64,000 bases of DNA from Gemmatimonadota bacterium (lineage in GTDB: Bacteria; Gemmatimonadota; Gemmatimonadetes; Gemmatimonadales; GWC2-71-9). Below, one piece after another: positions 6,332-59,607 of this stretch (the first letter of the stretch is position 1; each line of letters starts with the position of its first letter). The stretch is taken from contig JAPULZ010000204.1 in the NCBI GenBank assembly GCA_027294455.1, forward strand, positions 1-64,000, read 5' to 3'. Position numbers and translations under genes: made by a program. The notes under the pieces are model-generated. The model worked only from the letters and a program-made list of their open reading frames with translations, was not told where the DNA came from and made no database searches.

Positions 6332-7674
6332 TCGCCCACCTCGCCCGGTTCTGGCTCACCTTCGAGAGTCCAGTGAACCGCGCAGCGTATCTCAAGCACG
6401 GATTCGCGCTGGCACTCCTCAAGTACGGTGGTGACGCTCTCCTGGTCGGGACAGGCACTGGCGCGTTCTGGTCGCCGTTCGATTACATGCAATCGGTCCC
6501 GTTTCTCCTCGACGAGACATTTGCCAACGCGCCAGGCTACCTCGCCCCGGCCCTCGCGGTGTGGACGATGCCGTTCCTGTGGATCGGCGTCACCATGTCC
6601 ATGCGTCGCGCGCTGGACGCCGGCTGGTCTGCCTGGGCGGCGTTGCTGTTCTTCGTCCCCTACGCCAACTACGGCTTGATGTTGACGTTGGCAGCATTGC
6701 CCACGAGCGGGCGGACGTCGGGGCTGCGGGTCGCTCCACGTCCCCAGGAGGCGCGTCTCCCCAGCGCACTCCTCGCCATCGGCGCCGGCTCGGCCACAGG
6801 GCTCGGCATCCTGATCCTGAGTGTCAGGCTGTTGAACAGTTATGGCCTGGCACTCTTTCTCGGAGCACCCTTCGTGATCGGTACGGTAACCGGGTTCCTG
6901 TTGTGCCGCCGATACCCGGCTTCACTGCGAGAAACGCATGAGGCGGTCACCATGACCATGCTGTTGATCGGTGGCGTGGCGTTTCTTCTCGGCACCGAGG
7001 GCGCCGTCTGTCTGCTCATGATGCTCCCGCTGGGGATCGTGTTGGCGCTGATGGGCGGTGCAATGGGACGGGCCATCGCGCGCTTGGGCACCGGGACGGC
7101 CTCGCATGCGGCCATCGTGGTACTCATGCTTCCGTCGGCGGCGGCATGGGAGGCGGGAACCGAAACGGTGGTACTCCGCGAAGTGCAGTCGGCCATCGAG
7201 ATCGACGCAACAACCGAAGTCGTGTGGAATCATGTAATCGCGTTCTCGCCACTGCCCGAGCCCACGGAACTTCTCTTCCGCCTCGGCGTCGCCTACCCCA
7301 TGCGCGCGGAGATCGAAGGCAAAGGCGTCGGCGCCATGCGATACTGCGTGTTTTCCACGGGAAGGTTCGTGGAGCCCATCACCCGCTGGGAACCGGGCCG
7401 GCGCTTGAGCTTCGACGTTATCGAGTCTCCGCCGCCCATGAAAGAATGGAGTTTCTACGAGGGCGTGGCCCCGCCCCACCTGGAAGGGTATCTGGTTCCG
7501 CGCCGCGGCGAATTTCGGTTGGTCGCGCTGCCGAACGGCAGGACGCGGCTCGAGGGCAGCACGTGGTACGAACAGCGGCTTCGCCCGGAGGGATACTGGG
7601 TGCTCTTCTCCGACGCCATCATCCGGCGGATCCATCTGCGCGTGCTAGAGCATATCGCCCTGTTGGCGGAGTAG
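6328..7674 (+). CDS. Multi-pass membrane protein with C-terminal SRPBCC (START-like) domain
   Basis: 448 residues in two parts. Residues 1-270 hold roughly eight hydrophobic helices; the first block (ALDAGWSAWAALLFFVPYANYG) looks like a DUF805 membrane unit. Residues 285-448 form a soluble SRPBCC fold: SAIEIDATTEVVWNHVIAF is the usual first strand and helix, and RLEGSTWYEQRLRPEGYWVL the last strand and helix. Such domains bind hydrophobic ligands, so a lipid-sensing or lipid-handling role at the inner membrane is plausible but inferred. The ATG overlaps the upstream stop (ATGA), so it is translationally coupled to the broken gene and belongs to the pirin transcript. Confidence 0.75.
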   Translation: MIAHLARFWLTFESPVNRAAYLKHGFALALLKYGGDALLVGTGTGAFWSPFDYMQSVPFLLDETFANAPGYLAPALAVWTMPFLWIGVTMSMRRALDAGWSAWAALLFFVPYANYGLMLTLAALPTSGRTSGLRVAPRPQEARLPSALLAIGAGSATGLGILILSVRLLNSYGLALFLGAPFVIGTVTGFLLCRRYPASLRETHEAVTMTMLLIGGVAFLLGTEGAVCLLMMLPLGIVLALMGGAMGRAIARLGTGTASHAAIVVLMLPSAAAWEAGTETVVLREVQSAIEIDATTEVVWNHVIAFSPLPEPTELLFRLGVAYPMRAEIEGKGVGAMRYCVFSTGRFVEPITRWEPGRRLSFDVIESPPPMKEWSFYEGVAPPHLEGYLVPRRGEFRLVALPNGRTRLEGSTWYEQRLRPEGYWVLFSDAIIRRIHLRVLEHIALLAE

Positions 7675-18432: not shown

Positions 18433-18703
18433 TGTTGCAAAAGTTCTTGAGTCGGGGGGGTTTAGTATATGCGCGGAATGGGTGTGCGCTAGAGTGTCTT
18501 AGTACGAAGTTTCAGTGCTCGTTGCTCAGTACTCAGTCGATCTGCGACCGCGCCCCGGAATCGGCCACAATTGTCGCTTTTTGTATATCCCTCGCGTCGC
18601 CGCCATGCGGAACCTTCCCCACCCCAACGCCGTAGGACGTAATAACCGGTCACCCCCGATCGTTACGATCTCGACCGGGGTTGGTCCTTCGAACTGGGGC
18701 ACG

Positions 18704-21262
18704 ATGGTAGCTGGGAAAACCGGGGTACGCTGTCTGATCGTGGCGATGGCGCTGTTGCCGGGCGTCTCGGCCGCCGTGCGCCCGGCCGCAGGCCAGCAGA
18801 CCTCCAACCGAGGGGCGTTGACCGGCTACGTGGTGGCCACGAGCGACGACACGCCGCTGGGCCTCGCCAGGGTGAGCCTCACCCCACAACCCGCGGGAGT
18901 CCTTCCCGCCCAGAACGGTGAATCCAGCTTCGTGCTCGGCAGCCGTTCGGTGCTCACCGATGAGAAGGGCGCCTATCGGTTCGACAACATGGTGCCCGGC
19001 AGCTACCGGCTGTATGTCCGCCGCATCGGATACCGCCCCGTGAGCCTCGACCTCGAGCTGGAGGGCTCCCATGGACTCCAGCTTTCCGTGGGACTCACCG
19101 TGGCTCCGATCCGGTTGGAGCCGGTCACGGCCACCGCCGCCCCGGCGGACGTATTTAGCGCGACACAGACGGCCAGCGATGCGATCTGGTTCGACCGGGT
19201 GTCCCGGGAACGGTGGCGGCAGGACACGTTCCTCGAGAGCGACGTCCGCATGATCTCGGGCGAGGAGGTCGTGGAGGCGATCACCCTCGGCGAGACCGAC
19301 GTGCTCCGCGCGCTGCATCACCTTCCCGGTGTCACGACCCGAGATGATTGGACGGCCGAACCGTGGGTCCGCGGGGCACCGGGTAGCCAGTCGCGGGTGT
19401 ACTTCGACGGGATGCCGCTCTTCAACCCGCTCCATGCAGGTGGGTTGGGGACGGCCATCAACACGGACGCGCTGGGCGCGGTCTTCCTGCACCCCGGCGT
19501 GAGGCCGCCCGACATGGGAGACGGCGCCGCCGCGGTGATCGACATGAAGTCCCGCCCCGCCGGCGGGCTCGGCGAGCTGCGGGGGCGGGCGGGGATCACC
19601 AGTTCCAGCATCAGCGCCGCGTTCGACAAGCGTTGGAACGGAGGACGAGTCGGGACCCTGCTCGCCGTGCGGCGGTCCTGGCTCAACCGCACTCGCGACC
19701 TGGTCAAGAATCCGGACGGGCTCTCTCCCGAGATTCCGAACGACTACGCGGACGTGGTGGGCCGGGTGGACGTGGACCTGGGCGACGGCCGCAGCCTGGA
19801 GCTGAGCGGACTCTGGGAGCGGGACTGGATCGACGGCCCGATTCGCGGCGGCGCTCAGGGCAATACCTCGGCGTGGGGGAGCCTGGCCTCCCGGGCCACA
19901 GTCTCTTTCCCGACTGCCGGCGGGATCATGCGGCACACGCTGGGCTTCAGCACGTTCACCGCACGGGTCAAGCAGATCGAGCCGAAATGGCCGTTGGCCA
20001 TGTACGACTCGCTCCCCACCCAAGAGCCAACCGACAACGAGATCTATTACCTCACGCTGAACGGTGACTGGACACTTCCCGACGAAAGCAACTTCGGGCC
20101 GAAATGGCGCCTCGGCTACAAGGTGTTTTACGAAGAGGTGAGCTATCGCGGCGCCCCCCCAGCTCCCTTTTCGACCCCGGTCTATCTCTACACCGCCGAG
20201 GTGAACGGCCGCGTGGCGGCGGTGAATCTCTGGGGAGAGCGTTGGTTCCGGCCGGGCGACCGGTGGACCATTCGCCTGGGCGTGCGGGTCGGACTGGACA
20301 AAGAAACGCTGGAGGGTCTGGCCGATGAAGATCCCACGGCCATCGCCGACCAGCAGCTCGCGCCGCAAGTCACCGTCCGCTACCAGGCCAACGATCGGTT
20401 GCACCTCACCCTGGCTACGGGAACGCACCACCAGTACGAACAGGGTCTGGCCCCCTCCGGATTGAACTTCGGCCCGGCCCTGAACGCGAGCCCCATCTGG
20501 GTGCTCCCGCCGAACACCCGCTCGGCCGCCACCACGGAGATCACCACGCTGGGGGCGGAGTACTGGATCGGGGATACGTGGCTGGCGTCGGCCAATCTCT
20601 ACGAGCGCACGACCAACAACGTCGCTATTCCGGATCCTGGTCCCGGCCCGACAGACGACGACGCCTTCTCCGTGTCGGCGCAGAACCGGGCCCAAGGAAT
20701 CGAGCTGGCGGTCCGCCGGCTGGCGGGGCGATGGACCGGGTCGTTTGCATACACCGCGGGGCAGTCGGTCTACCAGGTCGGCGGCATGCGGTTCCCGGCG
20801 CCAACCGACCGGCGGCACATCATCGACGCTACCGCCATCACCGAGCTGCCCAGTCACATTGCCGGGGGGAAGGTGCGGATCGGCGGGACGTTCACGGCAG
20901 CCTCGGGAGCACCCTATAGCCGCCTTCATCCCGGCATCTACGACTGCAGCAACTACCAACCCGGGGAGGGCTGCCAGGCGATCATCCCCTCCTCGGTAGA
21001 GGCCCCCAACGCCCAGCGGTCGCCGTGGTACAGCGCCTTCAATGTACTGATCGACTGGGGTCGTTCGTTTACGGGATGGCATCTCGCGGCCCACGTGCAG
21101 GTACAGAACCTGTTGAACACCCCGCGGGCGGTCACGTACGCGGTGGACACGGCAACGTGCCGCCGGTTTTCGCTCGACCAGCCGGCGTGCGGCGCAGCGG
21201 AGGACGCGTTCCTTCCCGGCCTGAAGCGGCATTATGAGCTGGGATTGAAGGTGGCCTTTTGA
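18704..21262 (+). CDS. TonB-dependent receptor with carboxypeptidase-regulatory-like domain
   Basis: About 852 residues from ATG 18704, which gives a signal peptide (VRCLIVAMALLPGVSAAV). In-frame ATGs at 18515 and 18605 would add a leader of unlikely composition. Residues 30-125 form a carboxypeptidase-regulatory-like domain (GALTGYVVATSDDTPLGLAR). A plug domain follows (EAITLGETDVLRALHHLPGV, then VRGAPGSQSRVYFDGMPLFN) and then a 22-strand-type barrel to the C-terminal Phe. Such receptors take up siderophores, glycans or peptides; the ligand is not evident. The TGA overlaps the TTG start of the ECF sigma gene (TTGA), so receptor and sigma factor are coupled, though no FecA-like signalling domain is seen. 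Confidence 0.85.
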   Translation: MVAGKTGVRCLIVAMALLPGVSAAVRPAAGQQTSNRGALTGYVVATSDDTPLGLARVSLTPQPAGVLPAQNGESSFVLGSRSVLTDEKGAYRFDNMVPGSYRLYVRRIGYRPVSLDLELEGSHGLQLSVGLTVAPIRLEPVTATAAPADVFSATQTASDAIWFDRVSRERWRQDTFLESDVRMISGEEVVEAITLGETDVLRALHHLPGVTTRDDWTAEPWVRGAPGSQSRVYFDGMPLFNPLHAGGLGTAINTDALGAVFLHPGVRPPDMGDGAAAVIDMKSRPAGGLGELRGRAGITSSSISAAFDKRWNGGRVGTLLAVRRSWLNRTRDLVKNPDGLSPEIPNDYADVVGRVDVDLGDGRSLELSGLWERDWIDGPIRGGAQGNTSAWGSLASRATVSFPTAGGIMRHTLGFSTFTARVKQIEPKWPLAMYDSLPTQEPTDNEIYYLTLNGDWTLPDESNFGPKWRLGYKVFYEEVSYRGAPPAPFSTPVYLYTAEVNGRVAAVNLWGERWFRPGDRWTIRLGVRVGLDKETLEGLADEDPTAIADQQLAPQVTVRYQANDRLHLTLATGTHHQYEQGLAPSGLNFGPALNASPIWVLPPNTRSAATTEITTLGAEYWIGDTWLASANLYERTTNNVAIPDPGPGPTDDDAFSVSAQNRAQGIELAVRRLAGRWTGSFAYTAGQSVYQVGGMRFPAPTDRRHIIDATAITELPSHIAGGKVRIGGTFTAASGAPYSRLHPGIYDCSNYQPGEGCQAIIPSSVEAPNAQRSPWYSAFNVLIDWGRSFTGWHLAAHVQVQNLLNTPRAVTYAVDTATCRRFSLDQPACGAAEDAFLPGLKRHYELGLKVAF

Positions 21263-21765
21263 GCCTCAACCTCGAAGCCCTGTTCGACGCGCACCACGAT
21301 CAATTGTACGGCTATCTCGTACGACTGGTCGGAGATCCGGAACTGGCGGCCGACGCGGCCCAGGAAGCGTTCGTGCGCCTGTCGCAGCGACCGCCTCGTG
21401 ATACCAGCAACCTGAAGGCCTGGCTGTATACAGTGGCAACCAATTTTGCTTTTGACACGCTCAAGGTCGCGCGGCGGCGCGCCGAACTCTTGTCGGCGGC
21501 GCCGGACAGTGCACCCACGAGCGAACCGGCGCCCCCACCGGACGTTTCCCTCGAGCGTCTGGAGCGCCAAAAAACCGTTCGTGATGCTCTCGACCAACTG
21601 AGGGAGAAAGAGCGGACAACACTGCTCATGCGTGCCGAAGGTTTTTCATATCGCGAAATCGGTAAGGCGCTGACCATCCCCACCAATTCAGTGGGCGTGG
21701 TGGCGGCCCGGGCCCTGCGCAAACTCGCCGCGTTGCTGCAGACACAGGAGGCGATCCTCCAATGA
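21259..21765 (+). CDS. ECF sigma factor
   Basis: 168 residues. Region 2 spans about 5-70 (LFDAHHDQLYGYLVRLVGD, then AADAAQEAFVRL) and region 4 about 105-160 (REKERTTLLMRAEGFSYREI, then GVVAARALRKLAALL). There is no C-terminal extension. The TTG start overlaps the receptor stop (TTGA); the first residues MSLNLEALFDAH fit the family. Its stop overlaps the anti-sigma start (ATGA). Two identical TGTCACA-N16-CGTT motifs lie upstream of the two barrel genes at 22615 and 23271 and are the likely targets. Confidence 0.92.
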   Translation: MSLNLEALFDAHHDQLYGYLVRLVGDPELAADAAQEAFVRLSQRPPRDTSNLKAWLYTVATNFAFDTLKVARRRAELLSAAPDSAPTSEPAPPPDVSLERLERQKTVRDALDQLREKERTTLLMRAEGFSYREIGKALTIPTNSVGVVAARALRKLAALLQTQEAILQ

Positions 21766-22538
21766 CTTTGAAACTACTCAGCAACGAAGCGCACCTCACG
21801 GACGGAGACCTTCTCCGATTCAGTGATGGGGAGTGCGGCGCCCAAGAGCGAGCGCAGATCGCCGCGCACATCGCCGGCTGCGAGCAATGCGCCGAAGCAT
21901 CGCGGTTCTTCACGTCGATCACGAGCCAGTTGAACGTCTCGCTCGACGACCTGGTCGTCGACCCGCCGGCCGATGCGAAGCAGCGTGTCCTCGCCGCGGC
22001 GCGCAGCGCGAAACCAATCCCGCAACGACGACCCGTGCTCCGCAGGCAGGCACTCCTGAGGGCCGCGGTCGTCGCGTTTGCCCTGGTGGCCGCCGGCATG
22101 TGGGCCGCGCCCGTCCGGGCGTGGTTTGCCGAACTGTTGGGGGTCGATCGGCCGGAGCCCGTGGAAACCGCGCCCGCCCCCGAGCGCGCGGCGCTGCCCC
22201 AGGCGAGCCTGTCGTCGACGGTGTCGTTCGTCCCCACGGCCGCGACGTTCGTCATCGACCTCTCCGCGAACCAAGCCGCGGGCACGTTGACGCTCGCGGT
22301 GCACGACGGCGCGCAAGCGTCAGCCCGAATCACCGATGGCGGGCCAACCGATGCCCTCTTCGTCACGGGCAACGGCATTCGCATCAGCAATGCCCCTACC
22401 TCCTCGGCGACGTACACCATCACCGTGCCAGCCAACGTGCAAGAGGTCCAGGTGCTCGTGGGCGGTGTGGTGGCGGGGACGTACTCGGTGTCGAGCATCG
22501 CCGCACAGGACGGGGTGGTGGTGGACATCGCAGGGTAG
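21762..22538 (+). CDS. Zinc-binding anti-sigma factor, membrane-anchored
   Basis: 258 residues. The N-terminal domain carries the ZAS zinc motif: His36, Cys40 and Cys43 in HIAGCEQC, preceded by the usual LTDGDLLRFSDGE helix. One membrane helix spans about 98-117 (LLRAAVVAFALVAAGMWAAP). The outer part is a Pro/Ala-rich stretch and a small beta domain. It should hold the ECF sigma at the inner membrane and release it on an envelope signal, perhaps redox-linked through the zinc site. The ATG overlaps the sigma stop, the standard coupled arrangement. Confidence 0.88.
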   Translation: MTLKLLSNEAHLTDGDLLRFSDGECGAQERAQIAAHIAGCEQCAEASRFFTSITSQLNVSLDDLVVDPPADAKQRVLAAARSAKPIPQRRPVLRRQALLRAAVVAFALVAAGMWAAPVRAWFAELLGVDRPEPVETAPAPERAALPQASLSSTVSFVPTAATFVIDLSANQAAGTLTLAVHDGAQASARITDGGPTDALFVTGNGIRISNAPTSSATYTITVPANVQEVQVLVGGVVAGTYSVSSIAAQDGVVVDIAG

Positions 22539-22554
22539 TGGCCTTCCACCACCC

Positions 22555-22581
22555 TGTCACAAACTCCACCGACGGATCGTT
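22555..22581 (+). promoter_or_regulatory. ECF-type promoter for barrel gene 1
   Basis: TGTCACA (22555-22561), 16 bases, CGTT (22578-22581), then 33 bases to the ATG at 22615. The same motif with the same spacing precedes the barrel gene at 23271. The elements resemble ECF promoters of the TGTCACA/CGTC class. Confidence 0.7.
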
Positions 22582-22614
22582 CCATGACTGAATCAAGACA
22601 CGGACGATCCGACA

Positions 22615-23175
22615 ATGCGAACGACATTACGGGCAGCGGCAATTGCCGCATTGCTGTTGAGTACCATGGCCTCGACTGGAACCGCGCAAGAGAGACGCAA
22701 GCACGACGGCTTCTGGTGGGGATTCGGACTCGGCGGCGGCGTGCAGGGCCTGCAGTGGGATTTCGATTCGGCGAACGACGCGTGGGAATTCGATTGGGAC
22801 GGCCGGCGCGGTGGGAGCGCGCACTTCCGGGTCGGCGGCACCGTCAATCAACAGGTGCTCCTGGGCGCCGAGACGCTGGTGCTCTGGCGAGAGAATCAGC
22901 CCGGCCAGGATCTCCAACGCGTCAACGTCATGGCGACGGCACTCATCTATCCGGACTCCGACGGCGGAGTGTTCTTCAAGGGGGGCTTCGGCGTTGCCAC
23001 GGTGGAGGACCTGGGCCAACACGAGACCGGTGTCGGCACAACACTGGGAGCCGGCTACGACTTCCGCATCGCATCCAATCTCTATCTGACGCCCAATTTC
23101 CACGTGCTCGTTCAGATCTTCGACCGCCATACGAGCTCGGCGTTGCTGTTCACGTTGGGACTTACGTGGCACTAA
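22615..23175 (+). CDS. Small outer-membrane beta-barrel protein
   Basis: 186 residues with a signal peptide (RTTLRAAAIAALLLSTMAST, cut near TAQ). The mature protein has alternating strands, many Gly and aromatic residues (GFWWGFGLGGGVQGLQWDFD) and ends in a strand TLGLTWH, as in 8-strand OmpA/OmpX-like barrels. No enzymatic motif is seen. It is the first gene after the sigma/anti-sigma pair and has its own ECF-type promoter, so it is a likely regulon member. Function is unknown. Confidence 0.7.
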   Translation: MRTTLRAAAIAALLLSTMASTGTAQERRKHDGFWWGFGLGGGVQGLQWDFDSANDAWEFDWDGRRGGSAHFRVGGTVNQQVLLGAETLVLWRENQPGQDLQRVNVMATALIYPDSDGGVFFKGGFGVATVEDLGQHETGVGTTLGAGYDFRIASNLYLTPNFHVLVQIFDRHTSSALLFTLGLTWH

Positions 23176-23209
23176 TGCCATCGTCGAGTAACCAGTGCTC
23201 GCTCTAAGG

Positions 23210-23236
23210 TGTCACAAATCGCCCCCACGGTTCGTT
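23210..23236 (+). promoter_or_regulatory. ECF-type promoter for barrel gene 2
   Basis: TGTCACA (23210-23216), 16 bases, CGTT (23233-23236), then 34 bases to the ATG at 23271. Same elements, spacer length and start distance as the site at 22555, with further likeness just outside them (AA after the -35, CGG before the -10, TTC at the -10). Confidence 0.7.
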
Positions 23237-23270
23237 CAACCCACGAACCACCACGACAACGGGGGCACAC

Positions 23271-23942
23271 ATGTCGAAGATGATCACGGTTGTTGCAGTC
23301 GTCTGCCTCGGATCCGGTATGACGTCCGCTACGGCAGCCCAAGCACGTGTTGGGGTCAAAGGGGGATTCAACATCACCGATTTCCACGGCGGCACATCGG
23401 GCACGGGCGACACATTCGCGGAAACCAAGAATCGTCATCCGGCGGCGGGCGGATTGTTTGTGAGCATTCCCATCGGGTCGCGTGTGTCAATCACGCCTGA
23501 AGTGTTGCTGACCGGCAAAGGATTCAAGCAGAACGACGTCATCTCGGGAATACCGGTAGAGGTGACCGTCAAATTCAACGCGCTCCAATTTCCCCTGTTG
23601 TTGAACGTCGTACTCGGGCCAACCGATGCCGTCGTGACGTCCCGATTGTTCGTCGGGCCGGCCGTGACGTTCGAGCTCTCGTGTGACCTGACGTTCGACA
23701 GATTGCTCCCCGAGCTGCCGTGCGACGACGTGGCCGATCTGGACCGGGAGTCGTGGGACCTGGAAGCCATATTTGGCGGGGCACTGGATATCGCCGGCCC
23801 CGGCCGGTTCGTGTTCTCGCTCGAAGCGCGGTACGATTACGGATTGCGCAATCTGGATGCGGCGGCCGAGCCGAACAACTTCAACGTGAAGAGCCGCGCC
23901 TTCACCTTCCTCGGTGGAGTGTCGCTGGCGCTGGGACGCTAG
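23271..23942 (+). CDS. PorT-like outer-membrane beta-barrel protein
   Basis: 223 residues. A signal peptide (KMITVVAVVCLGSGMTSATA) precedes a barrel that opens with VGVKGGFNITDF, the usual first strand of the PorT/OmpW-like family, and ends in FTFLGGVSLALGR. A CDLTF...LPCDD segment could form one disulfide in an outer loop. It has its own ECF-type promoter and is followed after 13 bases by the DUF2807 lipoprotein gene, so the two are one operon. The role is unknown. Confidence 0.75.
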   Translation: MSKMITVVAVVCLGSGMTSATAAQARVGVKGGFNITDFHGGTSGTGDTFAETKNRHPAAGGLFVSIPIGSRVSITPEVLLTGKGFKQNDVISGIPVEVTVKFNALQFPLLLNVVLGPTDAVVTSRLFVGPAVTFELSCDLTFDRLLPELPCDDVADLDRESWDLEAIFGGALDIAGPGRFVFSLEARYDYGLRNLDAAAEPNNFNVKSRAFTFLGGVSLALGR

Positions 23943-23955
23943 GAGGGAACGCCTC

Positions 23956-24642
23956 ATGAAGAAACACCTCATAGTTGCTTGGGGGTTGACCGTGCCCCTG
24001 CTCCTGTCGGGATGCATCGCGCTAACAGACCCGCTCATCCCGGGCGGCGGCGGCACCGTCATCGGATCGGGACGCGTGATCACCGTATCCCGATCCGTGA
24101 GCGGCTTTTCGACGATCCGGGTCAACGGCGTGGCCCGCGTGACGATCGAGCAGACGGGCGAAGAAACCCTGTCCATCACGGCGGACGACAACATCGTCCC
24201 CGTGCTACACTCCGATGTCGAGGACGGAACACTCATCCTCGGCACCCGAGACGACACCAACATCGAATCCTCGACCGAGATCTTCTACCGTCTGACCGTC
24301 AAGGATCTCCGGGGTATCGACATCAACGGGGTCATCACCGCCGATGCCGCGGGACTCGACACCGACCGACTCGACATCAACCTCAACGGCGTCTCCACGC
24401 TGACCACCGAGGGACGCGCCGACCGGCAGTTCATCAACCTGAACGGCGTCAGCGCGTATCGAGCGGACAAACTGCACAGCCTGGAAGCGAGAGTCGAAGC
24501 CGACGGCGTCCTCACCGTCGTGCTCAGGGTGAGCGACCGCCTCGATGTACTGGCGTGCGGTGCGGGCTCGGTAGAGTACATCGGCGATCCGCTGGTCGAT
24601 CTCCACGACACGTGCGCGGCAGTTACCGTGCGCAAGCTATAG
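23956..24642 (+). CDS. DUF2807 lipoprotein (head-GIN type)
   Basis: 228 residues. The lipobox LLLSGC follows a short signal (KKHLIVAWGLTVPL). The mature part is a DUF2807 right-handed beta structure, with repeating motifs FSTIRVNGVARVTIEQTG, LRGIDINGVITADAAG and INLNGVSAYRADK. AGGAGGG stands 8 bases before the ATG. The family is common in envelope-stress contexts and may act as a putative auto-adhesive or scaffolding protein, but its activity is not established. It is cotranscribed with the PorT-like barrel and so falls under the ECF-type promoter at 23210. Confidence 0.82.
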   Translation: MKKHLIVAWGLTVPLLLSGCIALTDPLIPGGGGTVIGSGRVITVSRSVSGFSTIRVNGVARVTIEQTGEETLSITADDNIVPVLHSDVEDGTLILGTRDDTNIESSTEIFYRLTVKDLRGIDINGVITADAAGLDTDRLDINLNGVSTLTTEGRADRQFINLNGVSAYRADKLHSLEARVEADGVLTVVLRVSDRLDVLACGAGSVEYIGDPLVDLHDTCAAVTVRKL

Positions 24643-59046: not shown

Positions 59047-59607
59047 ATGAATGTGAACGAATCGGCGCTCGCGACCATGGCCAAGGCCGGCGATGTGGAC
59101 GCCTTTGGAGAGCTGGTCGAGCGATACGCGGCCCAAGCTCGCCGAGTGGCCCGAGCGGTGCTGTCCGACCCTGACGACGGTGATGATGCGGCGCAGGATG
59201 CGTTTCTGTCCGCGCTCAAGCACCTGAACCGATACGATCCCAGCCGGCCTTTTGGCCCATGGCTGATGCGGATCGTGGCCAATGCCGCCGCCGACCGGCG
59301 GCGCCGCCGGAAGGTCCGGGCTGCCGAGGAGCTCTCGGATACCACGGCCGGAGGCGGTCCGGGACCCGACATCGAGACCGACCGCCGGGCGTTCATGGCG
59401 GCGTTCCGCGCAGCCCTGCAGGGTCTTCCGGAGCGCCAACGGGCGGCGGTGACGCTCTTCGACGTGGAGGGGTATTCCCACGCCGAGATCGCCGAGATCC
59501 TGGAGATCCCCCAGGGGACCGTGCGATCGGACGTCTTTCACGCCCGCCGCCGCCTGCGGGGGACGTTGCAGACCTGGAGGCACCACTGGAAGGAGGAAGT
59601 GGTTTGA
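59047..59607 (+). CDS. ECF sigma factor
   Basis: 186 residues. Region 2: GDVDAFGELVERYAAQARRV and DAAQDAFLSALKHLNRYD; region 4: ERQRAAVTLFDVEGYSHAEI and GTVRSDVFHARRRLRGTLQ. The TGA overlaps a TTG that opens the putative anti-sigma gene (TTGA, AAGGAGG 7 bases before). The upstream GGTCACA at 58985 lacks a CGTC at the right distance, so no autoregulatory site is claimed. It heads a series that ends in a MacAB-TolC-type exporter. Confidence 0.92.
   Translation: MNVNESALATMAKAGDVDAFGELVERYAAQARRVARAVLSDPDDGDDAAQDAFLSALKHLNRYDPSRPFGPWLMRIVANAAADRRRRRKVRAAEELSDTTAGGGPGPDIETDRRAFMAAFRAALQGLPERQRAAVTLFDVEGYSHAEIAEILEIPQGTVRSDVFHARRRLRGTLQTWRHHWKEEVV

Follow-up and report, generated by a model that had tools for sequence, protein, structure and literature searches.

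Two predicted promoters with a shared motif, P1 and P2, are very probably driven by the ECF sigma factor encoded at 21259–21765 in a 64-kb stretch of Gemmatimonadota DNA (the window), which forms part of a 4.2 Mb draft genome that is 94% complete. In this explanation the sigma factor would be held by its anti-sigma factor, would serve a local cargo of genes and would probably autoregulate weakly. Our best reading of the locus is a strictly local ECF/anti-sigma surface-sensing module, probably autoregulated, whose surface-protein cargo varies by species.

All genes of the locus lie on the plus strand. It begins with a TonB-dependent receptor (18704–21262), in which Pfam recognizes N-terminal CarboxypepD_reg and Plug domains and gives no match to STN at E-values up to 1. 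The start of the sigma gene overlaps the receptor stop and the anti-sigma gene (21762–22538) overlaps the sigma stop, by 4 bases in each case. The sigma protein of 168 residues, characterized with Pfam, NCBIfam and alignment, contains Sigma70_r2 and r4_2 only, lacks region 3 and scores over the cut-off of TIGR02937, and is thus of the ECF type; the alignment shows that it stops just past region 4, without a C-terminal extension. The anti-sigma factor exceeds the Pfam cut-off for zf-HC2 and consists of an Hx3Cx2C zinc-type anti-sigma domain, a membrane helix and a periplasmic beta domain of about 105 residues. Its zinc-motif residues H36, C40 and C43 are invariant, which places the domain in class I (ASDI), and Pfam finds no FecR match in it at E-values up to 1.

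Downstream lie two outer-membrane beta-barrel genes, barrel 1 (22615–23175, OMP_b-brl) and barrel 2 (23271–23942, OMP_b-brl_2), followed by a lipoprotein gene with a DUF2807 (head GIN) domain (23956–24642, Pfam E 1.9e-24). Pfam thereby bears out the gene content read by the first-pass annotation from the letters alone: sigma-70 regions 2 and 4, a zf-HC2 anti-sigma factor, two barrels and a DUF2807 lipoprotein. Because the lipoprotein gene begins only 13 bases 3' of barrel 2 and has a good ribosome site (AGGAGG), the two genes likely share one transcript, and P2 would then serve both. Between 18500 and 24800, sigma-70-type promoters and intrinsic terminators show no excess over shuffled sequence. 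A second ECF sigma gene lies elsewhere in the window, at 59134–59574.

The paired sites had been described as TGTCACA-N16-CGTT at 22555–22581 and 23210–23236, and both copies are exact at these positions. The distances from CGTT to the start codon are 33 bases for barrel 1 (ATG 22615) and 34 bases for barrel 2 (ATG 23271), as had also been reported, and the two spacers are equal in length at 16 bases, with letters that agree at 10 of the 16 positions. The likeness extends beyond this pattern, to TGTCACAA...ACGG.TCGTTC. In full, P1 reads TGTCACAA-N15-CGTTCC (22555–22583, plus strand) and P2 reads TGTCACAA-N15-CGTTCA (23210–23238, plus strand). Outside the −35 element, spacer and −10 element, the sequences around P1 and P2 are unlike.

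We searched the whole genome for TGTCACA-N16-CGT[TC], the check proposed with the first description of the sites. The 4.2 Mb contain four copies of the CGTT form and two of the CGTC form, compared to none and one, respectively, for the pattern read backwards, and only P1 and P2 lie upstream of gene starts: of the other two CGTT copies one falls within a MacB-type permease gene (contig C247) and one has no plausible gene start near it (contig C7), and both CGTC copies fall in coding frames. Of a refined motif, GTCASAA-N15-CGTTC, the genome holds exactly two copies, P1 and P2, and 27 related genomes together hold 14. Looser forms are common: GTCAC-N17-CGTT has 70 copies in the genome, and matches with two mismatches abound in the shuffled window, so that the evidence lies solely in the exactness of the pair, where it stands and how it is conserved. 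Since the motif was chosen after being seen, independent tests weigh more. A wider regulon elsewhere in the genome was considered and set aside: with two mismatches allowed, 48 genome matches against 27 for the reversed pattern do not resolve one, and the stricter matches examined outside the locus are coding or have no gene start near them. The distribution of the motif in this genome is local only.

Conservation in relatives provides such a test. In the sister genome, where the sigma factor is 74% identical, the orthologous locus (L157) carries CGTCACGAA-N14-TCGTT before barrel 1, at 6334; the −35 element, spacing and −10 element of P1 are kept there amid diverged flanks. Tandem TTGGATA-type repeats occupy L157:6244–6330, between the anti-sigma stop and this promoter. 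More distant relatives, with sigma identities of 41–57% (L159, L160, L165, L039, L040, L043 and L042), carry GTCA[CG]-N17-CGTT at their sigma loci. Over all loci, a site of the group stands immediately upstream of sigma in five (L159, L160, L165, L125, L126) and upstream of the TonB gene heading the sigma operon in seven (L039, L040, L043, L044, L124, L162, L163), with a weaker site at the latter place in L041 and L157; L042 has sites before both divergent units, one of which precedes a barrel gene leading sigma. Sites also precede the lipoprotein gene directly 3' of the anti-sigma gene in L039, L040, L124, L043 (CGTC form) and L046, the first four of these coming from a matrix rescan that included the window sites. 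L046, which was first taken as a control, has a GGTTC-form site at this place, and the tree puts it in the group. Among the loci of the same clade where no site was found, L164 is a plain negative, L158 offers fewer than 450 bases of sequence before the receptor gene, and the contig of L161 starts at the sigma gene.

The spacing of 17 is uniquely enriched. In a scan of 20 sigma loci, 10 GTCA[CG]–CGTT matches occur at N17 and between 0 and 2 at each of the remaining spacings between 8 and 30 (Poisson P about 2e-9), three of the ten coming from the window and its ortholog. We built a matrix from nine sites before a homologous sigma or TonB-receptor operon, all from other genera, and scanned the 64-kb window and the loci from relatives with it. 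Over both strands of the window the matrix ranks P1 first (20.8) and P2 second (19.6), followed by a third match at 13.2; the highest-scoring single match among 60 shuffled windows reached 20.1. Control loci yielded five matches scoring 15 or more, two of which come from loci placed within the group by the tree. The matrix is therefore not highly specific. In the held-out loci L157, L162, L163, L044 and L124 the top matches lie before the receptor gene. Further predicted sites of the group precede barrel and lipoprotein genes that are divergent or lie nearby (L163:3978, 5428 and 10504, minus strand; L044:3368 and 2713, minus strand), so that some relatives may have a more extensive local regulon.

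The genes behind the promoter vary. The gene 3' of anti-sigma encodes secreted lipoproteins of different kinds in relatives and barrels in the window, and at L039:7173, L040:5996, L124:6549 and L046:7219 the promoter is kept while this gene differs. Barrel identity was rejected as a marker of the regulon, as barrel-1 homologues elsewhere in the family are common but for the most part lack both linkage to sigma and the motif. The genome itself carries a barrel-1 paralogue with 42% identity (G000:C216:12172–12705), without a convincing upstream site.

Taken over the sigma group, the predicted promoter is GTCA[CG]AA-N15-CGTTC. The TGTCACA form from which the first-pass annotation started thus does not extend to the group: in most relatives the −35 element reads GTCAGAA, and CGTTC is the main form of the −10 element. 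Where the −35 element ends in G, the region 4.2 helix reads GTTTxSVG(T), with the near exception of L041 (GACAG with RTTTGSVG); where it ends in C (the window, L157, L165, L125, L126 and L045), the helix is not GTTT. The C form occupies two separate positions on the tree, corresponding to two changes of base and helix in step. Co-variation of the last −35 base with the helix is thus suggestive, with about two changes that do not reach significance in an independent-pairs test. Given the conserved motif and spacing at homologous operons, the helix that tracks the −35 element and the local-only distribution, all of them computed, we infer that P1 and P2 are most likely ECF-type promoters read by the adjacent sigma factor.

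The release mechanism, the signal and the extent of the operons we infer from the gene content. The zinc-type anti-sigma factor (21762–22538) would hold the sigma factor at the inner membrane until an envelope signal frees it; the co-encoded TonB receptor or the periplasmic beta domain of the anti-sigma factor may relay this signal. Once freed, the sigma factor would use P1 to drive barrel 1 and P2 to drive barrel 2 with the DUF2807 lipoprotein, and a site near 18639 would probably give weak transcription of the sigma operon itself. The sigma group as a whole would be mostly autoregulated and control adjacent genes for surface or secreted proteins. The periplasmic domain is well modelled, with pLDDT around 90 over most of residues 150–258 (22209–22535). 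Its closest solved folds in a fold search are DUF2807-type putative adhesins, which match weakly (E 6e-3 to 3e-2), and no sequence homology was found between this C-terminal domain and the DUF2807 lipoprotein. DUF2807-type folds are the family of the regulated lipoprotein at 23956–24642, and the predicted structure makes sensor mimicry or feedback possible.

The first-pass annotation had drawn a self-contained regulon of receptor, sigma, anti-sigma, two barrels and lipoprotein. The two barrels are well supported as members and the lipoprotein is a likely one; for the receptor–sigma–anti-sigma operon the window offers a weak candidate, GTAATAA-N15-CGTTAC (18639–18666, plus strand), 39 bases before ATG 18704. 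This candidate has 3 mismatches in 13 positions, a match equalled by 6 of 2000 random positions at that distance range, and scores 6.1 with the other-genera matrix. The sigma factor may read P1 and P2 while another promoter serves TonB–sigma–anti-sigma, with no autoregulation and a regulon of two barrels and a lipoprotein. The lack of a good motif upstream of the window TonB gene (best score 6.4) is in favor of this possibility, to which we give a less than even chance. Against it, most relatives have a clear site before the receptor–sigma–anti-sigma operon, suggesting positive feedback, and weak candidates stand at a similar distance in the window and the ortholog (in L157 GGAAGAA-N15-CGTTCA, with 36 bases between it and the TonB start). 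It is a variant of the main explanation and compatible with its core, the reading of P1 and P2 by the adjacent sigma factor.

Two further alternatives deny that core. P1 and P2 could belong to a different sigma factor of the genome, in particular an ECF41: the published signature of that group is TGTCACA-n16-CGTC (PMC3426412), and ECF41s do exist in Gemmatimonadota, many with TGTCACA-N16-CGTC sites nearby, which bear out that signature as a positive control. However, neither the genome nor the sister genome contains an ECF41 over the cut-off or with its extension, the −10 element of P1 and P2 is CGTTC as opposed to CGTC, the only two CGTC-form sites of the genome are coding, and across genera the motif, including its GTCAG variants, follows the locus of its own sigma factor. 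Within the limits of an assembly that is 94% complete, ECF41 is excluded as the reader of P1 and P2, and we regard a foreign reader as very improbable. The pair could also be a chance likeness or a copied intergenic repeat without promoter function, given that 10 of the 16 spacer letters agree, that a local duplication is conceivable and that less strict matches to the motif abound in shuffles and in the genome. The dissimilar surroundings of the two sites, the preservation of P1 in the ortholog and the independent recurrence of the motif at homologous sigma operons make this exceedingly improbable.

About 79% of Gemmatimonadota ECFs have a linked class I anti-sigma factor (PMC7406223), and our literature search found no ECF promoter study of this phylum. 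The system is thus of an ordinary kind, with a promoter class for which no study was found. The observation of paired sites from which the analysis departed proved correct and sharp, and the regulon reading largely right, with the receptor–sigma operon uncertain in this genome. The outcome is a concrete, falsifiable prediction of promoter and regulon for a Gemmatimonadota ECF group. The natural −35 specificity pair GTCAC/GTCAG, with its matching helices, is useful for the ECF −35 recognition code, and a TGTCACA −35 element by itself must not be taken for ECF41.

The data also admit a broader proposal, which we offer tentatively and with well under even confidence. The sigma factors may form a Gemmatimonadota ECF group that has not been described before and that has a promoter class to itself, GTCA[CG]AA-N15-CGTTC; in this group the STN-less TonB receptor and the adhesin-like anti-sigma domain would sense the surface, the cargo (barrels, adhesin-like or other secreted lipoproteins) would be swapped between species, and the helix would set the last −35 base as C or G (GTTTxSVG for G). 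The DUF2807 lipoprotein, which shares a loose fold class with the sensor domain of the anti-sigma factor, might feed back on it.

The FecA-FecR-FecI system likewise unites a TonB-dependent receptor, a sigma factor and a membrane anti-sigma factor in one cluster; here, in contrast, the receptor yielded no STN domain, and the anti-sigma factor is of the zf-HC2 and not the FecR type. ECF41 (SigJ-like) shares the TGTCACA −35 element and about the same spacing (PMC3426412), whereas its large C-terminal (SnoaL_2-like) extension, CGTC −10 element and COE target genes have no counterpart here. The ECF41 model NF007214 matches only the sigma part of the window protein, below cut-off, and in an alignment with 16 Gemmatimonadota ECF41s the ECF41 helix reads ..RQL..RAR and that of the window sigma NSVGVVAARA. 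The first-pass judgement that the likeness comes without membership is confirmed by the missing extension, the other helix, the CGTTC −10 element and GTCAGAA in most relatives; most simply, the shared TGTCACA would be convergent. The class I zinc anti-sigma modules SigE-ChrR and SigL-RslA also combine a sigma gene with an overlapping Hx3Cx2C anti-sigma gene and a bipartite ECF promoter at a mostly autoregulated locus; RslA and ChrR are among the fold-search matches, and among PDB sequences SigL matches the sigma factor best. The present system differs from them in its membrane-anchored anti-sigma factor with an adhesin-like periplasmic domain, in its GTCA[CG]AA −35 element and in its linkage to a TonB receptor and surface proteins. 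By analogy, the sigma/anti-sigma pair would work like these known ECF/class I modules, with inhibition of the sigma factor predicted on the same grounds.
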